Source: a virus. Taken from it: a stretch of DNA of 31,433 nt. Below are positions 741-29,677 of the stretch, piece after piece; the first letter of the stretch is position 1, and each line of letters opens with the position of its first letter. A program made the translations under genes and the position numbers. The DNA is taken from the IMG/VR virus record IMGVR_UViG_3300035034_000542, positions 1 through 31,433 of that record; one strand, given 5' to 3'. The notes beneath the pieces were generated by a model. It saw only the letters and a program-made list of their open reading frames with translations, was not told the DNA's origin and did no database searches.

Positions 741-2303
741 ATGGAATTAAGACCATACCAGCAAGATTTATTAAACAAAATAAATTTTAATCCTAACAGA
801 AAAATATTAGTTCAACTCGCTACAGGCGGAGGTAAAACCATCATTTTCACGACCCTAGCAAAGCAATACAAAGGGCGTGTTTTAATTTTAGTCGACAGCC
901 GTGAACTAGTAGGGCAAACAGCTAAACACTTCGAACACGGGGCTACATTTGAAGCTAAAGACAAAGTTTTTCCAAAAACAAAAATTGTCGTTTCCATGGT
1001 GCAAACTTTGAAAAGTAGGCTAAAAAAACAACCTGATTTAATTGCTGATTTTGACCTAGTCATAATTGACGAATGTCATATTTTGCAATACGAAATTCTT
1101 TTGCCGTTAATTAAATGCAAATTATTAGGCTTCACAGCTACACCGGTAAGCAACCGAAAAGATAATTACTATTATGATGCAGAAGTAAAAGAAATGTTTA
1201 GAACGCCATTTACTGATGCAATAGAATTTACAAAAGACTTCGCGCTTTCTGAAATTTTCGAAGATATTATAGTAGGCATTCCAATTCAGCAACTTATTAG
1301 CGAGGGGTTTTTAGTGCCAGACGAAAATTATGTTATTCCGATTGACGAGGAAAATTTTAAATTTGATAAATTTGGCGAAGTATCAAATTCAGATGAGGTA
1401 TTTGATGAAGCCTACCAGATGGATGTTTTAGCAAATTATAAAGAATATTGCAGCGGCAAAAAAACAATGATTTTTGCGCAAAATACAACTTTAAATTTAT
1501 TCCTTTACAATCAATTTGTAGATGCAGGAATTGAAAATTGCTTTATGTATGATAGCGTAAATGATACCGATTTCAACAGAAGCGAAGTTGTGGAAAAATT
1601 CCGAAATACAAAAGGTGCTATTTTATTTAACGTCGGAGTTTTTACCAAAGGTTTTGATGTGACCGATGTGGAATGTATCATTGTAAGCAGACGTGTATCT
1701 TCTCTTTCTTTGTGGATTCAAATCGTGGGCAGAGGAAGCCGCACAACCGACAAACTATTTAAAGATAGGTTCATTGTAATTGACGGCGGAAACAACATTA
1801 ACCGGTTAGGAAAATGGAGCGACGACTTCGACTGGGATAAATTATTTTGGGGCAAAGACGACTATAAACCCAAAAAAGAAGCGCCAGAAGAAATGTTAAA
1901 AGAGTGCGATAATTGTGGAGAACTAATGCCAGAGCGTCAATGTTTATGTAAATCGTGCGATCACAACAACTGCAAAATAAAAGAAATTGTAATTGAGTCA
2001 GGAATTGCAATTCAAATTAATAAAGTAGATATTGACATAGATAAAATAATTCGATATTCAGAAAAAAAAGACAAGTTTTTTGCACTAAAAGTTTTAAACG
2101 AACAAATTTTTAGACTTTTTAAAAATGTAGATAAAGATCAATTTGAAAGAAACAAAACGGGCGGAGTTGAACGTATATTTACAACCCACTTAAAAACAGG
2201 TTATTTAGCAATTATACGCTCCGATTTAAAAAGCAAAGCAAACCGAACATACGCGCAACAGAAGAAAATATTATTAAAAAAACTTGAAAACAAATATTTA
2301 TGA
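741..2303 (+). CDS. SF2 DNA/RNA helicase (ResIII/RadD-like)
   Basis: A 520-aa superfamily 2 helicase that probably unwinds DNA during phage replication or recombination. The visible motifs are in canonical order: Q-like RPYQ (4-7), Walker A ATGGGKT (27-33), Walker B box DECH (110-113), motif III-like GFTATP (130-135), and motif VI QIVGRGSR (327-334). After the helicase core comes a CxxC...CxCxxC zinc-ribbon-like segment starting at Cys389, then a charged C-terminal tail of unknown role. Length and zinc segment resemble the ResIII/RadD-type helicases common in Bacteroidetes phages. The stop overlaps the primase start (ATGA at 2300-2303), so the two are coupled. The start ATG lies 13 nt behind the U-run of structured RNA 1. 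Confidence 0.93.
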   Translation: MELRPYQQDLLNKINFNPNRKILVQLATGGGKTIIFTTLAKQYKGRVLILVDSRELVGQTAKHFEHGATFEAKDKVFPKTKIVVSMVQTLKSRLKKQPDLIADFDLVIIDECHILQYEILLPLIKCKLLGFTATPVSNRKDNYYYDAEVKEMFRTPFTDAIEFTKDFALSEIFEDIIVGIPIQQLISEGFLVPDENYVIPIDEENFKFDKFGEVSNSDEVFDEAYQMDVLANYKEYCSGKKTMIFAQNTTLNLFLYNQFVDAGIENCFMYDSVNDTDFNRSEVVEKFRNTKGAILFNVGVFTKGFDVTDVECIIVSRRVSSLSLWIQIVGRGSRTTDKLFKDRFIVIDGGNNINRLGKWSDDFDWDKLFWGKDDYKPKKEAPEEMLKECDNCGELMPERQCLCKSCDHNNCKIKEIVIESGIAIQINKVDIDIDKIIRYSEKKDKFFALKVLNEQIFRLFKNVDKDQFERNKTGGVERIFTTHLKTGYLAIIRSDLKSKANRTYAQQKKILLKKLENKYL

Positions 2304-4492
2304 AATTCTCAAAATACAAAACCCACAACGAAAAAGATAACATAACTATTGACTTTGATAAATATGTTGAACTGGTAAAAAATGGAGACCATCAAAGTCT
2401 AATATTTGAAGCAAGAGCAAACAAATCAGATAAAAAAAAGTACACCGAAATTAAAAGTAAGTTGCCAGCAATTACAGGAAGTTGCACCGTGAAACAAGGC
2501 GGGCGTTCAGTTGCTAACATTGACGAAATGAACGGCTTAATACTTCTAGATATTGATTGTGATGTAAGCACCGACCTACGCAAAAGAATTGATGCAGACA
2601 AATATACCTTTAGCTCCAACCGTTCAGTTAGTGGAACGGGACTAGTCGTATTTGTAAAGATTAATCCAGATGTATTTTTGGAAAGCTTTTACGGACTTGC
2701 GCAATATTACAGCGATAATTTTGATGTAGACATTGATCAGGCTTGTAAGGATAGATCACGTTTGAGATACATTTCGTACGACTTCGATATATTCCACAAT
2801 CCAAACGCTGCAACTTTTAAAGCTAAAAAAGCACCCGCCAAACAAAAGAAAAAAGAAACTTTCTATTTTGCCAAAGACGACTTTAGTTTTATTATGGATC
2901 AAATCCAAAGTAAAAATATTGACCTTTGCCAAGACGACTACCAAAAATTTTGTGAAATTGGTTTTGCAATTGGTTCGCATTTTGGAGATTCAGGATTAGA
3001 TTATTTTAAAACAATTTGCCAAAACGGCTCAAAGTACGACCCGACCCGAATAGAAAGACAATACTTAAAGTTTTGTAAAGGTGGAAGCGTTACTATTTCG
3101 ACTTTCTACTTCCACGCAAAAGCAGCAGGATTAGAGTTGTATTCTCCAGTTAGTAAAGAAATTATTAAACGTGTAGCCGTTGGAAAAGCAAATAGCCAAA
3201 TAATGACGCCAGCGGGCGTTATTGAAACGCTAAAGATACTAGGAACACATACCACGGATGAAGCTTTTATAAAGCAGTTAATCGACTCCAAAGAAAACTT
3301 TGCAAAGAATATAGACAATGAAGAAAATGATACGGTAAAATTAGATTTATTCGTTAAAGAAAACTACCCGATAGCAAAAAATGGATTTAACCAACAGTAC
3401 GAATTTGAGGGGCAACCCGTGAACGATGAAATAATTAATTCCATCACAATTCACGCAAAGAAATATTTTGATTTTAAAGTTTCCGCAACCGATATTTCAC
3501 AACTTATTTTTAACTCACAAGCCAAAACATACCAGCCAATAGAAGACTATTTTAAGAATAACAATACAACAGCTGCAGGCGATGAGATTGACAAGTATGC
3601 TGATTTAATACTACCTTTTAACGAGTTCAACAGGTGGGTGTTAAAAAAGTGGCTTGTGGGCGCTATACACAACTGGACTAGTTCAAACGAACACGAGGAA
3701 GTTAGTCCACTTGTTTTGGTTTTATGTGGTCAACAAGCCAGCGGTAAGACTTCTTTTTTTAGAAATATGCTTCCAAAAGATTTAAGAAGGTATTTTATTG
3801 ATGAGGCAATGGAAGAAGGCGGAAAAGACGTTTTAAAACGTATGGCAACCTCAATGATAATGCTAAATGATGAATTTGGCGGCATGGCACACAAAGATGT
3901 TAAGAATTTCAAAAAAATAACCGAGAAAAACAAAATAACGGTTAGACTTCCATACGGGCGTTTAGACGTAGATTTGAAGCGTAGAACAATGTTATGCGGT
4001 ACAACTAACGAAAAGAGCGTATTAAAGGACGAAACAGGTAACAGGCGTATATTACCAATATCTTTTGAAAGCGTCAAATATTCCGAAGCTGTAGAATTTG
4101 ATAAAGATGCATTATTAAAATGCGCACACAATCTTTATTTAGATGGTTTTGAATTTCGTGTTTTTTCAAAAGAAGATATTGACTACCTGAACCAAAATAC
4201 ATTGCAAAATTTAGAGATTGAGGTTTCAGAAGATTTGTTTTTTAGCCGTTATTCGTTCGAGAAAACAGACGACCATAACGAGGAAGTTATTTTAAACCAA
4301 GGCGAAATTTGCAACGAAATGAACGTACATTTTTCTTACAAGGTTACAAAATACGACATAAAAAGAATATGCGTTAAGCATAAAATGGAATTAAAAATGC
4401 ATCGTATTGGCTCAAAAACAAAAAAAGGGTACAGATTATTTAAGAAAAACGACTTCCAAAAGGTTCAGGAGACACAAGAAGTCCCGTTTTAA
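2300..4492 (+). CDS. VirE/BT4734-type primase-helicase (replication initiator)
   Basis: A 730-aa multidomain replication protein. Residues about 20-175 resemble the BT4734/VirE N-terminal domain: the stretch GLILLDIDCDV, then SVSGTGLVVFVKI, has the pattern of archaeo-eukaryotic primase-like folds in mobile elements. Residues about 205-280 resemble a PriCT-type primase C-terminal domain (YQKFCEIGFAIGSHFG, then the ISTFYFHAKAAGL region). Residues about 475-605 form a VirE/VapE-type SF3 helicase with Walker A GQQASGKTS, acidic MLNDEFGG, and the sensor-like CGTTNE followed by DETGNRRILPI. The gene sits between the helicase and an iteron cluster, which suggests it may recognise the origin. It is read from an ATGA overlap with the helicase. 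Its primase activity is inferred from family resemblance. Confidence 0.9.
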   Translation: MKFSKYKTHNEKDNITIDFDKYVELVKNGDHQSLIFEARANKSDKKKYTEIKSKLPAITGSCTVKQGGRSVANIDEMNGLILLDIDCDVSTDLRKRIDADKYTFSSNRSVSGTGLVVFVKINPDVFLESFYGLAQYYSDNFDVDIDQACKDRSRLRYISYDFDIFHNPNAATFKAKKAPAKQKKKETFYFAKDDFSFIMDQIQSKNIDLCQDDYQKFCEIGFAIGSHFGDSGLDYFKTICQNGSKYDPTRIERQYLKFCKGGSVTISTFYFHAKAAGLELYSPVSKEIIKRVAVGKANSQIMTPAGVIETLKILGTHTTDEAFIKQLIDSKENFAKNIDNEENDTVKLDLFVKENYPIAKNGFNQQYEFEGQPVNDEIINSITIHAKKYFDFKVSATDISQLIFNSQAKTYQPIEDYFKNNNTTAAGDEIDKYADLILPFNEFNRWVLKKWLVGAIHNWTSSNEHEEVSPLVLVLCGQQASGKTSFFRNMLPKDLRRYFIDEAMEEGGKDVLKRMATSMIMLNDEFGGMAHKDVKNFKKITEKNKITVRLPYGRLDVDLKRRTMLCGTTNEKSVLKDETGNRRILPISFESVKYSEAVEFDKDALLKCAHNLYLDGFEFRVFSKEDIDYLNQNTLQNLEIEVSEDLFFSRYSFEKTDDHNEEVILNQGEICNEMNVHFSYKVTKYDIKRICVKHKMELKMHRIGSKTKKGYRLFKKNDFQKVQETQEVPF

Positions 4493-4760
4493 ATGTTTAC
4501 TTTGTTTACTTTTGTTTACTTTTGTTTACTTTTAAAAGTAAACACAATTTTCATTAAACACGGGGCTTAAGAGGTTAATGTTTACTTGTAGCCTATAAAT
4601 ATTAACTTTAACCTTATAGAAATGCATAAATACACACACATCACACATAATGACATATTATATACATTATAGAAATAAGTTTGAAAAACAAAAGTAAACA
4701 AGGCTACAAGTAAACATCAATTGAAAATCAATGACTTACAAAACACTAAAAGTAAACATT
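4493..4760. other. Candidate replication origin with GTTTAC iterons
   Basis: A non-coding stretch just behind the primase-helicase gene. GTTTAC occurs forward at 4495, 4504, 4514, 4524 and 4580, and inverted (GTAAAC) at 4538, 4694, 4710 and 4752: nine copies in about 265 bp. The first four are nearly regular, about 10 bp (one helical turn) apart. GTTTACTTTTAAAAGTAAAC (4524-4543) is a perfect 20-bp palindrome. Between the clusters (about 4595-4690) lies very AT-rich DNA with a CA-rich run, suitable for unwinding. Iterons, a dyad and an AT-rich core next to a replication initiator are the classic layout of an origin. That this is the origin is an inference. Confidence 0.65.
4578..4717. repeat. 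17-bp inverted repeat pair inside the origin candidate
   Basis: ATGTTTACTTGTAGCCT at 4578-4594 is the exact reverse complement of AGGCTACAAGTAAACAT at 4701-4717, separated by 106 bp of AT-rich sequence. Each arm contains one GTTTAC iteron plus a unique extension (TTGTAGCC), so the pair is longer than chance iteron matches. It could hold two protein-binding sites facing each other across the melting region. Confidence 0.85.
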
Positions 4761-4765
4761 TTAAC

Positions 4766-5131
4766 ATGAAACTAGAAAATATAAAGAAAAAAACCACTGC
4801 ACAGCTGCAAGACTTGGGAAAAAAGTCGGAGGAAACTATACAAAAAGAAATAGTAAACTATTGCAAATTGAATGATCTATTAATTTTCTGCGTGCCAAAT
4901 GAAGCTACAAGAAATAATAGTAAATTTATTGGCATGGGCGTTTTATCTGGAGTTTCTGATTTGGTATTGATTTTAGAAAATAAAGTTATATTTGTGGAAT
5001 TGAAAAACCACAAAGGAATACAAAGCGAAAGACAAAAAGAATTTGAAAGTAGAGTTTCAAAATTGGGCCATCATTATATTATAATTAGATCACTAGAAGA
5101 TTTTAAAAAAATAATTTGTAATTGTAAATAA
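4766..5131 (+). CDS. VRR-NUC domain nuclease
   Basis: A 121-aa single-domain PD-(D/E)xK nuclease of the VRR-NUC family. Visible pattern: SEETIQKEIVNYCK (helix with the conserved early Glu), then SGVSDLVLILENKVIFVELK, where Asp and E-x-K supply the metal-binding site, then the basic helix HKGIQSERQKEF. Stand-alone VRR-NUC proteins are frequent in phage replication blocks and are thought to cut branched or ssDNA-containing structures. I chose ATG 4766. A longer frame opens at TTG 4721, but that would place the start inside the iteron region. The last iteron (4752) ends 8 bases before this ATG, so protein bound at the origin could also affect expression here. Confidence 0.88.
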   Translation: MKLENIKKKTTAQLQDLGKKSEETIQKEIVNYCKLNDLLIFCVPNEATRNNSKFIGMGVLSGVSDLVLILENKVIFVELKNHKGIQSERQKEFESRVSKLGHHYIIIRSLEDFKKIICNCK

Positions 5132-5992: not shown

Positions 5993-6334
5993 ATGGCAAA
6001 CAATCAAAACTTAAAACCATTTCCAAAAGGAGTGAGTGGCAACCCAAAAGGAGCACCAAAAACAAAGATGCTTAAAGAGGTTTTAACAGCTGAATTACAG
6101 ACCGAAAGTAATGGAGTGGATAAATTGACTGCAATTATAAACAAGTTAACTACAATGGCTGTAAAGGGCGATATGAACGCTATTAAAGAAGTATTAGACA
6201 GGTACGCTGGTAAGTCTACACAACACAATGAAACCAAACATAGCGGCGAAATGCTTATAAAACAGGAACTTTCACACTTCACAAACGAGGAACTTCTGGA
6301 GCGTGCAAATGCAGTTAAAAAAATAAATGAATAG
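5993..6334 (+). CDS. Putative terminase small subunit (DUF5681-like N-terminus)
   Basis: A 113-aa basic protein. The N-terminus (KPFPKGVSGNPKGAPKTK, residues about 8-25) is the DUF5681-type GNPKG motif that precedes terminases in many phages. It is followed by helices (LTAIINKLTTMAVKGDMNAIKEVLDRYAGKSTQ) typical of small subunits that bind the packaging site. It overlaps the large terminase start by 8 bases, the standard TerS-TerL arrangement. It would select phage DNA and hand it to TerL for cutting. The assignment rests on this motif and on position. Confidence 0.75.
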   Translation: MANNQNLKPFPKGVSGNPKGAPKTKMLKEVLTAELQTESNGVDKLTAIINKLTTMAVKGDMNAIKEVLDRYAGKSTQHNETKHSGEMLIKQELSHFTNEELLERANAVKKINE

Positions 6335-28055: not shown

Positions 28056-28703
28056 ATGAAAAACGAAATTACAATAATGCCAGTAAACGATATTATGTCT
28101 ATGGCAAAGGTATTTGCAGAAAGCGGAATGTTTACAGATGCAAAAGCAATGGGACAGGCATTTGTTAAAATACAAGCAGGTCAAGAGATTGGAGTGCCTC
28201 CATTTGCCGCAATGTCAGGAATACACATTATACAAGGCAAGCCAACTTTAGGGGCTGGATTAATAGCATCTACTGTTAAAGGGTCAGGAAAATATGATTA
28301 TAAGGTTGTTAAATTAGACGAAAAAATTTGTTCACTTGACTTTTATCAAGGGGCTGAAAAAATAGGTAACTCTAGTTTTACAATTGAAGATGCTAAAAAA
28401 GCACTTACAAAAAATATTGATAAGTTTCCAAAAAATATGCTTTTTGCTCGTGCAATTTCTAACGGCGTAAAGTGGTATTGTCCAGATGTGTTTTCGGGCC
28501 CCGTTTACGTGCCGGAAGAGATGCCAGAAGTAACGCAAGATATTGAACATGTAGAAGTTATTGATTATGCAGAAATCTTACAAGATTGCAAAACACTAGA
28601 GGCTTTAGAATTTCATTACAAAAGTATGCCTAAAGAAAAGCAAATTGAATTTAAAAAATTAGCAATTGAAATTAAAGAATTTTTAACACAAAAAGAATTA
28701 TAA
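28056..28703 (+). CDS. recT: RecT-like single-strand annealing protein
   Basis: A 215-aa protein. Residues about 12-70 (AKVFAESGMFTDAKAMGQAF, then VKIQAGQEIGVPPFAAMSGI and IIQGKPTLGAGLIASTVKGS) and the segment KNMLFARAISNGVKWYCPDV are typical of RecT/Bet-type annealases, which coat ssDNA and pair homologous strands. It is a little shorter than standard RecT, and its C-terminus is charged. An exonuclease partner such as YqaJ is not seen next to it; the nearest nuclease is the VRR-NUC gene. An SSB-like gene is two genes away. Confidence 0.88.
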   Translation: MKNEITIMPVNDIMSMAKVFAESGMFTDAKAMGQAFVKIQAGQEIGVPPFAAMSGIHIIQGKPTLGAGLIASTVKGSGKYDYKVVKLDEKICSLDFYQGAEKIGNSSFTIEDAKKALTKNIDKFPKNMLFARAISNGVKWYCPDVFSGPVYVPEEMPEVTQDIEHVEVIDYAEILQDCKTLEALEFHYKSMPKEKQIEFKKLAIEIKEFLTQKEL

Positions 28704-28813: not shown

Positions 28814-29344
28814 ATGGAAGTATTTAAAAAAATTGTTGGTTACCAAAACTATGAAGTTAGTAATTTAGGAGTTGTTAGGAGTTTAGACCATTATTGTATT
28901 GGAAGATATGGAAGCGGAAAACAAACAGGAAGAGTTTTAAAGCAAAGTAAATGTAAAAAAGGTTATTTAAATGTTTCTTTAAGTAAAGATAAAATTAGAT
29001 TTAAAACTGGCGCTCATAGATTAGTTGCTATTGCGTTTATTCCTAATTTGGAAAACAAACCCCAAGTAAACCATATAAATGGAATTAAAGAGGATAACCG
29101 AATTGAAAATTTAGAATGGTGTACTAATTCAGAAAATCAAATACACGCAATTAAAAATAACTTAATAAAACACAATACTGGAGAAAAGCATCATAATTCA
29201 AAATTAACCAATAATCAAGTTTTAACTGCAAGATCGTTACATAAAATTGGTTTTACAATTTTAATGCTTGCAAAAGATTATGGAGTTTCAGCTCAAGCAA
29301 TGAGTAAAATTTTAAAAAAAGAAACATATATTAACATTAAATAA
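28814..29344 (+). CDS. HNH endonuclease with NUMOD4-like N-terminus
   Basis: A 176-aa free-standing homing-type nuclease. Residues about 4-20 (FKKIVGYQNYEVSNLGVVRS) match the NUMOD4 motif. The HNH core is HRLVAIAFIPN, then VNHINGIKEDNRIENLEWCT, with the His/Asn metal-site pattern of the HNH_3 class. The C-terminal helices (NQVLTARSLHKIGFTILMLA, then KDYGVSAQAMSKILKKE) form a DNA-binding HTH. Such genes move between phage genomes. It interrupts the recT-SSB gene pair and carries its own promoter and structured RNA, as expected for a recent insertion. Confidence 0.92.
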   Translation: MEVFKKIVGYQNYEVSNLGVVRSLDHYCIGRYGSGKQTGRVLKQSKCKKGYLNVSLSKDKIRFKTGAHRLVAIAFIPNLENKPQVNHINGIKEDNRIENLEWCTNSENQIHAIKNNLIKHNTGEKHHNSKLTNNQVLTARSLHKIGFTILMLAKDYGVSAQAMSKILKKETYINIK

Positions 29345-29353
29345 ATAAAAATT

Positions 29354-29677
29354 ATGAGTGAAGTAATAGGGAAAATTATCGTTTTAGGCGATATTCAAAT
29401 TGTAGGAAGTGCAGGAACTTTTAAGAAAAGAACTTTAGTGGTCGAAACCGATGAGCAATATTCACAAAAAATACCTATTGATTTTGTACAAGACAAATGC
29501 GAAATTCTAGACAAGTATAAAGTTGGAAATAATGTTAAGGTAGGTATAAACATTAGAGGAAATGAGTATAATGGCAAATATTACGTTTCTTTAAATGGCT
29601 GGAAAATTGAAACGCTAGAAGTTGCTCCTACTATTGAACCAGTTGTAGATAATGCAGCAGAAGATTTACCTTTCTAA
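29354..29677 (+). CDS. DUF3127 single-stranded DNA-binding-like protein
   Basis: A 107-aa OB-fold protein. IGKIIVLGDIQIVGSAGTFK, then VETDEQYSQKIPIDFVQDKC and VGINIRGNEYNGKYYVSLNG, match DUF3127, which replaces SSB in many Bacteroidetes phages. The acidic C-terminus ends AAEDLPF, like the DDIPF tip of bacterial SSB that recruits partner proteins. It probably protects ssDNA during replication and supplies the substrate for RecT. A small hairpin follows its stop. Confidence 0.88.
   Translation: MSEVIGKIIVLGDIQIVGSAGTFKKRTLVVETDEQYSQKIPIDFVQDKCEILDKYKVGNNVKVGINIRGNEYNGKYYVSLNGWKIETLEVAPTIEPVVDNAAEDLPF

Follow-up and report, generated by a model that had tools for sequence, protein, structure and literature searches.

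SaPI Rep helicases use their C-terminal domain to recognize iteron origins situated immediately downstream of the gene that encodes them, and a related protein, Cch2, has been shown in vitro to bind and unwind the iterons downstream of its gene (PMC7581432). We analyzed a stretch of viral DNA of 31,433 nucleotides (IMG/VR record IMGVR_UViG_3300035034_000542, hereafter the window), whose ends carry a 127-bp exact repeat indicating a circle of 31,306 bp. Like the Rep/ori of SaPI5 PriRep1 and like SCCmec Cch2, the window combines an initiator helicase of the VapE/D5 type with short iterons directly downstream of the initiator gene. In the SaPI and Cch2 systems the C-terminal domain has been proposed or shown to bind DNA, whereas in the window a C-terminal winged helix is predicted and there are no binding data. 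The window further differs from both in the N-terminal domain of its initiator, which is BT4734-like/PriCT_2, and in iterons that turn over between close relatives. We also considered whether the window is itself a SaPI element, a satellite needing helper-phage particles, and rejected this, as it encodes a terminase large subunit (at 6327, PHROG 2). Unlike a SaPI, it represents an independent type of Bacteroidota phage with its own terminase on a 31.3-kb circle.

The locus also resembles the origins of iteron plasmids, in which direct iterons about one helical turn apart lie beside an AT-rich stretch. Unlike in those plasmids, the initiator here is a helicase that carries primase-type domains, no member of a plasmid Rep family was seen, and the arrays flank the core on either side, facing opposite ways. 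The locus does not qualify as an iteron plasmid origin with DnaA boxes, there being no DnaA-box-like TTATNCACA anywhere in the window. This absence counts against an origin, though one of the SaPI-type class would not need such a box.

Table 1. Positions of the features discussed; coordinates are those of the window or, for the T5orf172 nucleases, of the relative named.
Feature	Position	Strand	Basis or detail
SF2 helicase gene, just upstream of the initiator	741-2303	+	Pfam ResIII/DEAD
Initiator (primase-helicase), 730 aa	2300-4492	+	Pfam, PHROGs, Foldseek, profile
C-terminal winged-helix domain, residues 660-716, proposed iteron binder	4277-4447	+	AF2 model of residues 591-730
Codons for residues 700 (Met) to 707 (Thr), positions covarying with the iteron	4397-4420	+	Mutual information; independent-pairs test
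Left array, four direct GTTTAC	4495-4529	+	Starts 4495, 4504, 4514, 4524; slots common to relatives
Single inverted iteron, left side	4538-4543	-	Inverted slot kept in relatives
Inner left slot pair	4580-4594	+	GTTTAC (4580-4585) and diverged TGTAGCCT (4587-4594); alignment with relatives
AT-rich core, proposed melting region	4596-4684	none	79% AT; alignment with relatives
Inner right slot triple, about 8 bp apart	4694-4715	-	GTTTAC (4694-4699), diverged AGGCTACA (4701-4708, read on +), GTTTAC (4710-4715)
Last iteron	4752-4757	-	Slot kept in relatives
VRR-NUC nuclease gene (121 aa), bounding the proposed origin on the right	4766-5131	+	Pfam VRR_NUC, PHROGs
T5orf172 nuclease, L029	4692-5264		
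T5orf172 nuclease, L030	6470-7054		
T5orf172 nuclease, L200	4747-5310		
T5orf172 nuclease, L214	4736-5314		
T5orf172 nuclease, L220	4736-5311		
T5orf172 nuclease, L224	4737-5312		
T5orf172 nuclease, L249	4763-5347		
T5orf172 nuclease, L252	3521-4057		

The repeat-rich stretch is bounded by the stop codon of the primase-helicase gene and the start of the VRR-NUC gene (Table 1). A first-pass annotation had described here nine GTTTAC hexamers in about 265 bp, four of them about one helical turn apart, together with a perfect 20-bp palindrome, a separated 17-bp inverted pair and an AT-rich core, and these descriptions held. The nine copies, counted on both strands, lie between 4495 and 4757 (263 bp), beginning 2 bp past the initiator stop codon, and the iteron starts of the left array are 9, 10 and 10 bp apart. 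The same annotation had proposed counting the hexamer elsewhere, equal frequency being held to refute an origin. The whole window contains 32 GTTTAC against 23 expected, and the 23 copies outside the stretch are at chance level, so this objection fails. Randomizing the window 500 times with a first-order Markov model never placed more than five copies in any 270-bp stretch; the observed cluster of nine is therefore well beyond chance.

The palindrome proved slightly longer than described (22 bp, 4523-4544) and consists of the fourth direct iteron and the inverted iteron placed head to head. It is not conserved, being absent in two relatives (L004 and L005). A role for the palindrome as a terminator was rejected, given this lack of conservation and the absence of any terminator-like site. 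The inverted pair is exact over 17 bp (4578-4594 and 4701-4717) and extends to 19 matches out of 20 (4575-4594 and 4701-4720); each arm comprises one GTTTAC iteron and a second slot, which reads AGGCTACA in the window and AGGTTACA in relatives. We also observed that in GTTTAC-type loci the innermost slots (4587-4594 and 4701-4708 in the window) read AGGCTACA on both sides and not the current iteron; they could be relics or a distinct site. Between the inner arms the AT content reaches 79%, compared with 65% in the upstream gene, though less stable DNA exists elsewhere in the window. Cumulative GC skew of the circle, a check the first-pass annotation had suggested, climbs nearly monotonically and reverses only at the minus-strand genes around 24-26 kb. 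Since the skew follows gene direction, it cannot place an origin and is uninformative here.

Initiator searches of viral contigs yielded about 60 usable loci with 100 to 44% initiator identity, including cultured Flavobacterium phages of the genus Muminvirus. As a source of relatives, bacterial genomes gave none in a first scan and one contig of a Flavobacterium MAG in a second. Nearly every intact relative has a comparable stretch, and the earlier suggestion that such an origin is uncommon in phages of this group therefore failed. In the near-universal layout, three or four direct iterons begin at the initiator stop codon or close beside it and are followed by one inverted iteron and an inner left pair; past a core of some 100 bp come an inner right pair or triple, turned the other way round, and a final iteron ahead of VRR-NUC. 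The alignments show that slot positions stay constant across relatives while the letters in all slots switch together, among iterons such as GTTTAC, GTTAC, GGTAAC, GGTTAC, ATTAC, GGTAG and others. In right-side reading the slot word is AAGTAAAC in the window, and AAGTTACA, AGGTAAAA, AGGTAACA, AGGTTACA, AAATTACA, ATATTACA, ACCTTACC, AGGTAG and others in relatives. Between the window and its GTTAC-type relatives, the core is 78-82% identical compared with 61-62% for the iteron slots. The arrangement is not universal, since in phi46:1 the next gene starts 3 bp past the primase gene. In P12024L a 290-bp gap remains that contains few ATTACA-like words, which is not conclusive evidence.

The initiator contains the Pfam domains BT4734-like_N and PriCT_2 and a VapE-like helicase of the SF3/D5 type (VapE-like E 3e-30), and its PHROGs match is DNA primase/helicase. 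Its predicted structure has moderate overall confidence (mean pLDDT 72). The best Foldseek match of this model is SaPI PriRep1 with dsDNA (7pds, E 1.4e-9), and a profile of the initiator family matches the same 7pds chain by sequence (E 1e-12). Modeled separately, residues 591-730 gave block mean pLDDT values of 89-94 over 641-710 and 82 over 711-720. The winged helix predicted there, with higher confidence than the structure overall, has helices at 667-677 and 684-693 and wing strands at 699-703 and 706-715, which places residues 700 and 707 on opposite wing strands. A Foldseek search with the C-terminal domain alone returned only weak winged-helix matches. In two relatives (L014 and L016, with 82 and 77% identity overall) a diverged version takes the place of the initiator's N-terminal part as it stands in the window, while the helicase and C-terminus remain near-identical to those of relatives, so the initiator gene is mosaic.

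As for the neighboring genes, a helicase gene is likewise annotated upstream of the initiator in the Muminvirus isolates (L170, L264 and L265). The VRR-NUC assignment rests on a Pfam match under the curated cut-off (E 0.001) and on endonuclease/resolvase-like PHROGs families. Elsewhere in the window, a NUMOD4-HNH endonuclease gene (28814-29344) lies near a RecT-like gene (28056-28703) and a DUF3127 gene (29354-29677).

We then compared iteron letters with initiator residues. Iteron classes were set from DNA alone, in the orientation of the inner right slot, as T (NTTAC) or A (GTAA or GTAG). Because automatic per-locus calling of 8-mers was unstable near low-complexity stretches, the class was taken from words common to the inner left and inner right slots; for later loci and loci with insertions it was read by eye. 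GTNAC-type sites are near-palindromic, so the class depends on the orientation convention; both classes have the same slot orientations. Among the 577 columns that vary across 51 initiators, residue 707 is the most informative on iteron class (0.83 bit, z 14.6) and residue 700 ranks second (z 8.4), both within the predicted wing. On a tree of the helicase core, which omits these two columns, supported branches carry a minimum of 12 class switches. When 12 independent pairs were compared for residue 707 (V, F or A versus others), 11 agreed with the class and none opposed it (p about 0.001). Iteron and wing can both differ between very close relatives, namely L040 and L041, with helicase cores 99% identical, and L250 and L252, separated by a path length of 0.018.

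The rule for residue 707 was first formed by inspection and tested later, a prediction covering V, A, F, L, T and Q having been recorded ahead of fetching new loci. It was right for 10 of 11 distinct held-out wings (L106, L117, L119, L164, L248, L249, L252, L257, L261 and L263). The miss, L254, has Leu707 with Leu700, as does L064, the other locus that breaks the one-residue rule. With Leu700 added, all 12 independent pairs conform; this refinement was made after the exceptions had been seen and is no independent test. Ile707 (class A in three loci) and Asn707 (GTAG in one) lie outside the held-out score, these letters being absent from the prediction, as does a 714-aa subfamily of uncertain slot orientation (L156-L160, L225 and L255). 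Three further loci (L143, L256 and L258) were not recounted, their wings being equal to ones already used. The covariation of iteron class with residues 707 and 700 is directly observed in these data, as are the iteron cluster, its conserved slot layout and the joint replacement of letters in all slots; contact of the wing with the variable bases is inferred. At the wing turn, residues 704-705 are Gly-Ser in both GTAAA-type groups (the window and the L009 group), Val-Ser in L005, and mostly X-Gly in the GTAAC and GTTAC types. They might form a second code element, a suggestion that rests on only two lineages.

Alternatively, the covariation could reflect linked inheritance only, with cassettes of the initiator 3' end and the origin recombining and residue 707 carried as a passenger. 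The contiguity of gene end and origin and the repeated class changes on the helicase-core tree, which suggest exchange, speak for this reading. We consider it unlikely: residue 707 leads its neighbors (z 14.6 against 8.4 for the next), and cassette exchange alone leaves the lead of a single wing residue unexplained. Moreover, the pairing of letter and class repeats itself in groups only 45% identical, and the iterons change on both sides of a better conserved core.

The conserved layout, the concerted iteron changes that track the winged helix and the structural match to PriRep1 make an origin the best reading of this stretch. The proposal that it is an origin recognized by the adjacent primase-helicase is thereby supported, without binding, footprint or replication data. 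We infer from sequence alone that 4493-4765 is likely the phage replication origin, of the kind served by a self-loading SaPI-type initiator. In the mechanism we propose, the C-terminal winged helix of the primase-helicase would bind the GTTTAC iterons on both sides of the core, the initiator would assemble, putatively as two rings, on the arrays flanking it, melt the AT-rich DNA and load itself as the replicative helicase, and a host or phage polymerase would then follow. Binding, melting and initiation at this stretch are inferred from the SaPI and Cch2 precedents.

Two other functions were weighed against this reading. The repeats could be an operator array through which a phage regulator, perhaps the initiator, represses VRR-NUC and the genes behind it. 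The last iteron ends 8 bp ahead of the VRR-NUC start codon, and some origin-binding proteins also regulate transcription. Against it stand the symmetric arrays on both sides of a conserved core, an array that begins at the initiator stop codon, the covariation with the primase-helicase itself, and the SaPI precedent (PMC7581432), which favors initiation. As the sole function an operator array seems unlikely; it may exist alongside initiation. A cis site of some other kind, for example for partition or packaging, is very unlikely. Clustered short repeats near the terminase genes could fit packaging. Against such a site, we identified no gene for partition, the repeats covary with the primase-helicase, and the layout fits initiator origins.

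If the stretch is an origin, a possible driver of its change is suggested by nucleases found at the origins of relatives. Odn, a nuclease of phage ICP1, joins a T5orf172 nuclease to a RepA_N initiator-like domain; it cuts the origins of satellites and has been proposed as a driver of their restructuring (PMC8263062; further cases in PMC10448857). In eight distinct relatives, a T5orf172 gene (GIY-YIG superfamily) at the origin encodes a C-terminus homologous to the initiator winged helix (Table 1). The gene immediately follows the initiator and lies in or beside the left array, L030 being the exception with its gene behind the origin; the surroundings in L224 were not read in detail. Pfam T5orf172 was found in all four nucleases scanned. 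Alignment of the nucleases with the initiator C-terminus by hhalign gave a probability of 98% (E 2.7e-13), and BLASTP of the L029 nuclease against the L010 initiator gave E 2e-5. When 3,516 ORFs were searched with a winged-helix profile, the nucleases were the top non-initiator matches, the weakest of the eight reaching only E near 1. The window itself has no such gene. Nuclease winged helices are generally not closest to that of their own initiator, so repeated local capture of the domain is unsupported.

These nucleases resemble Odn in the fusion to an initiator-type DNA-binding domain that points at iterons; they may be origin-homing or origin-directed nucleases, and cleavage of iteron origins by them would be by analogy with Odn. 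Unlike in Odn, whose domain is an N-terminal RepA_N, theirs is a C-terminal winged helix of the VapE-initiator type, and the gene sits at the phage's own origin. Because of these two differences, homing is a likelier role than Odn-like attack. Among cultured phages, the nuclease gene of mumin6-1 (L170) splits the origin between the second iteron and the remainder; snusmum6-1 (L264) has no nuclease and an otherwise almost identical origin, and mymlan6-1 (L265) also has the nuclease. All three were isolated on Flavobacterium sp. LMO6. The main text of the Baltic phage paper (PMC7077304) mentions neither iterons nor nucleases, and subscription journals were largely outside our literature search. 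We hypothesize that nuclease pressure could explain the rapid iteron change. A bolder possibility is an arms race at the phages' own origin, in which selfish T5orf172 nucleases with a copy of the initiator winged helix home into or attack the arrays, and phages may escape by rewriting all the iterons together with residues 700 and 707; this would yield a family of mutually orthogonal origin-initiator pairs governed by a code of one to two residues.

Iteron origins and self-loading initiators are already known. How origin and initiator shift specificity jointly is usually hard to see, since many copies of the binding site have to be altered together. In these phages such switches can be read on one tree, several of them between near-identical helicases, and the signal falls on one or two residues. 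This opens the evolution of initiator specificity to direct testing, makes the recognition rule readable from genomes, and offers a large set of origin-initiator pairs for Bacteroidota that are potentially orthogonal. An initiator-like domain carried by the origin nucleases suggests a driving force, and the cultured related phages with and without the nuclease on one host, LMO6, offer a ready pair for the homing question.
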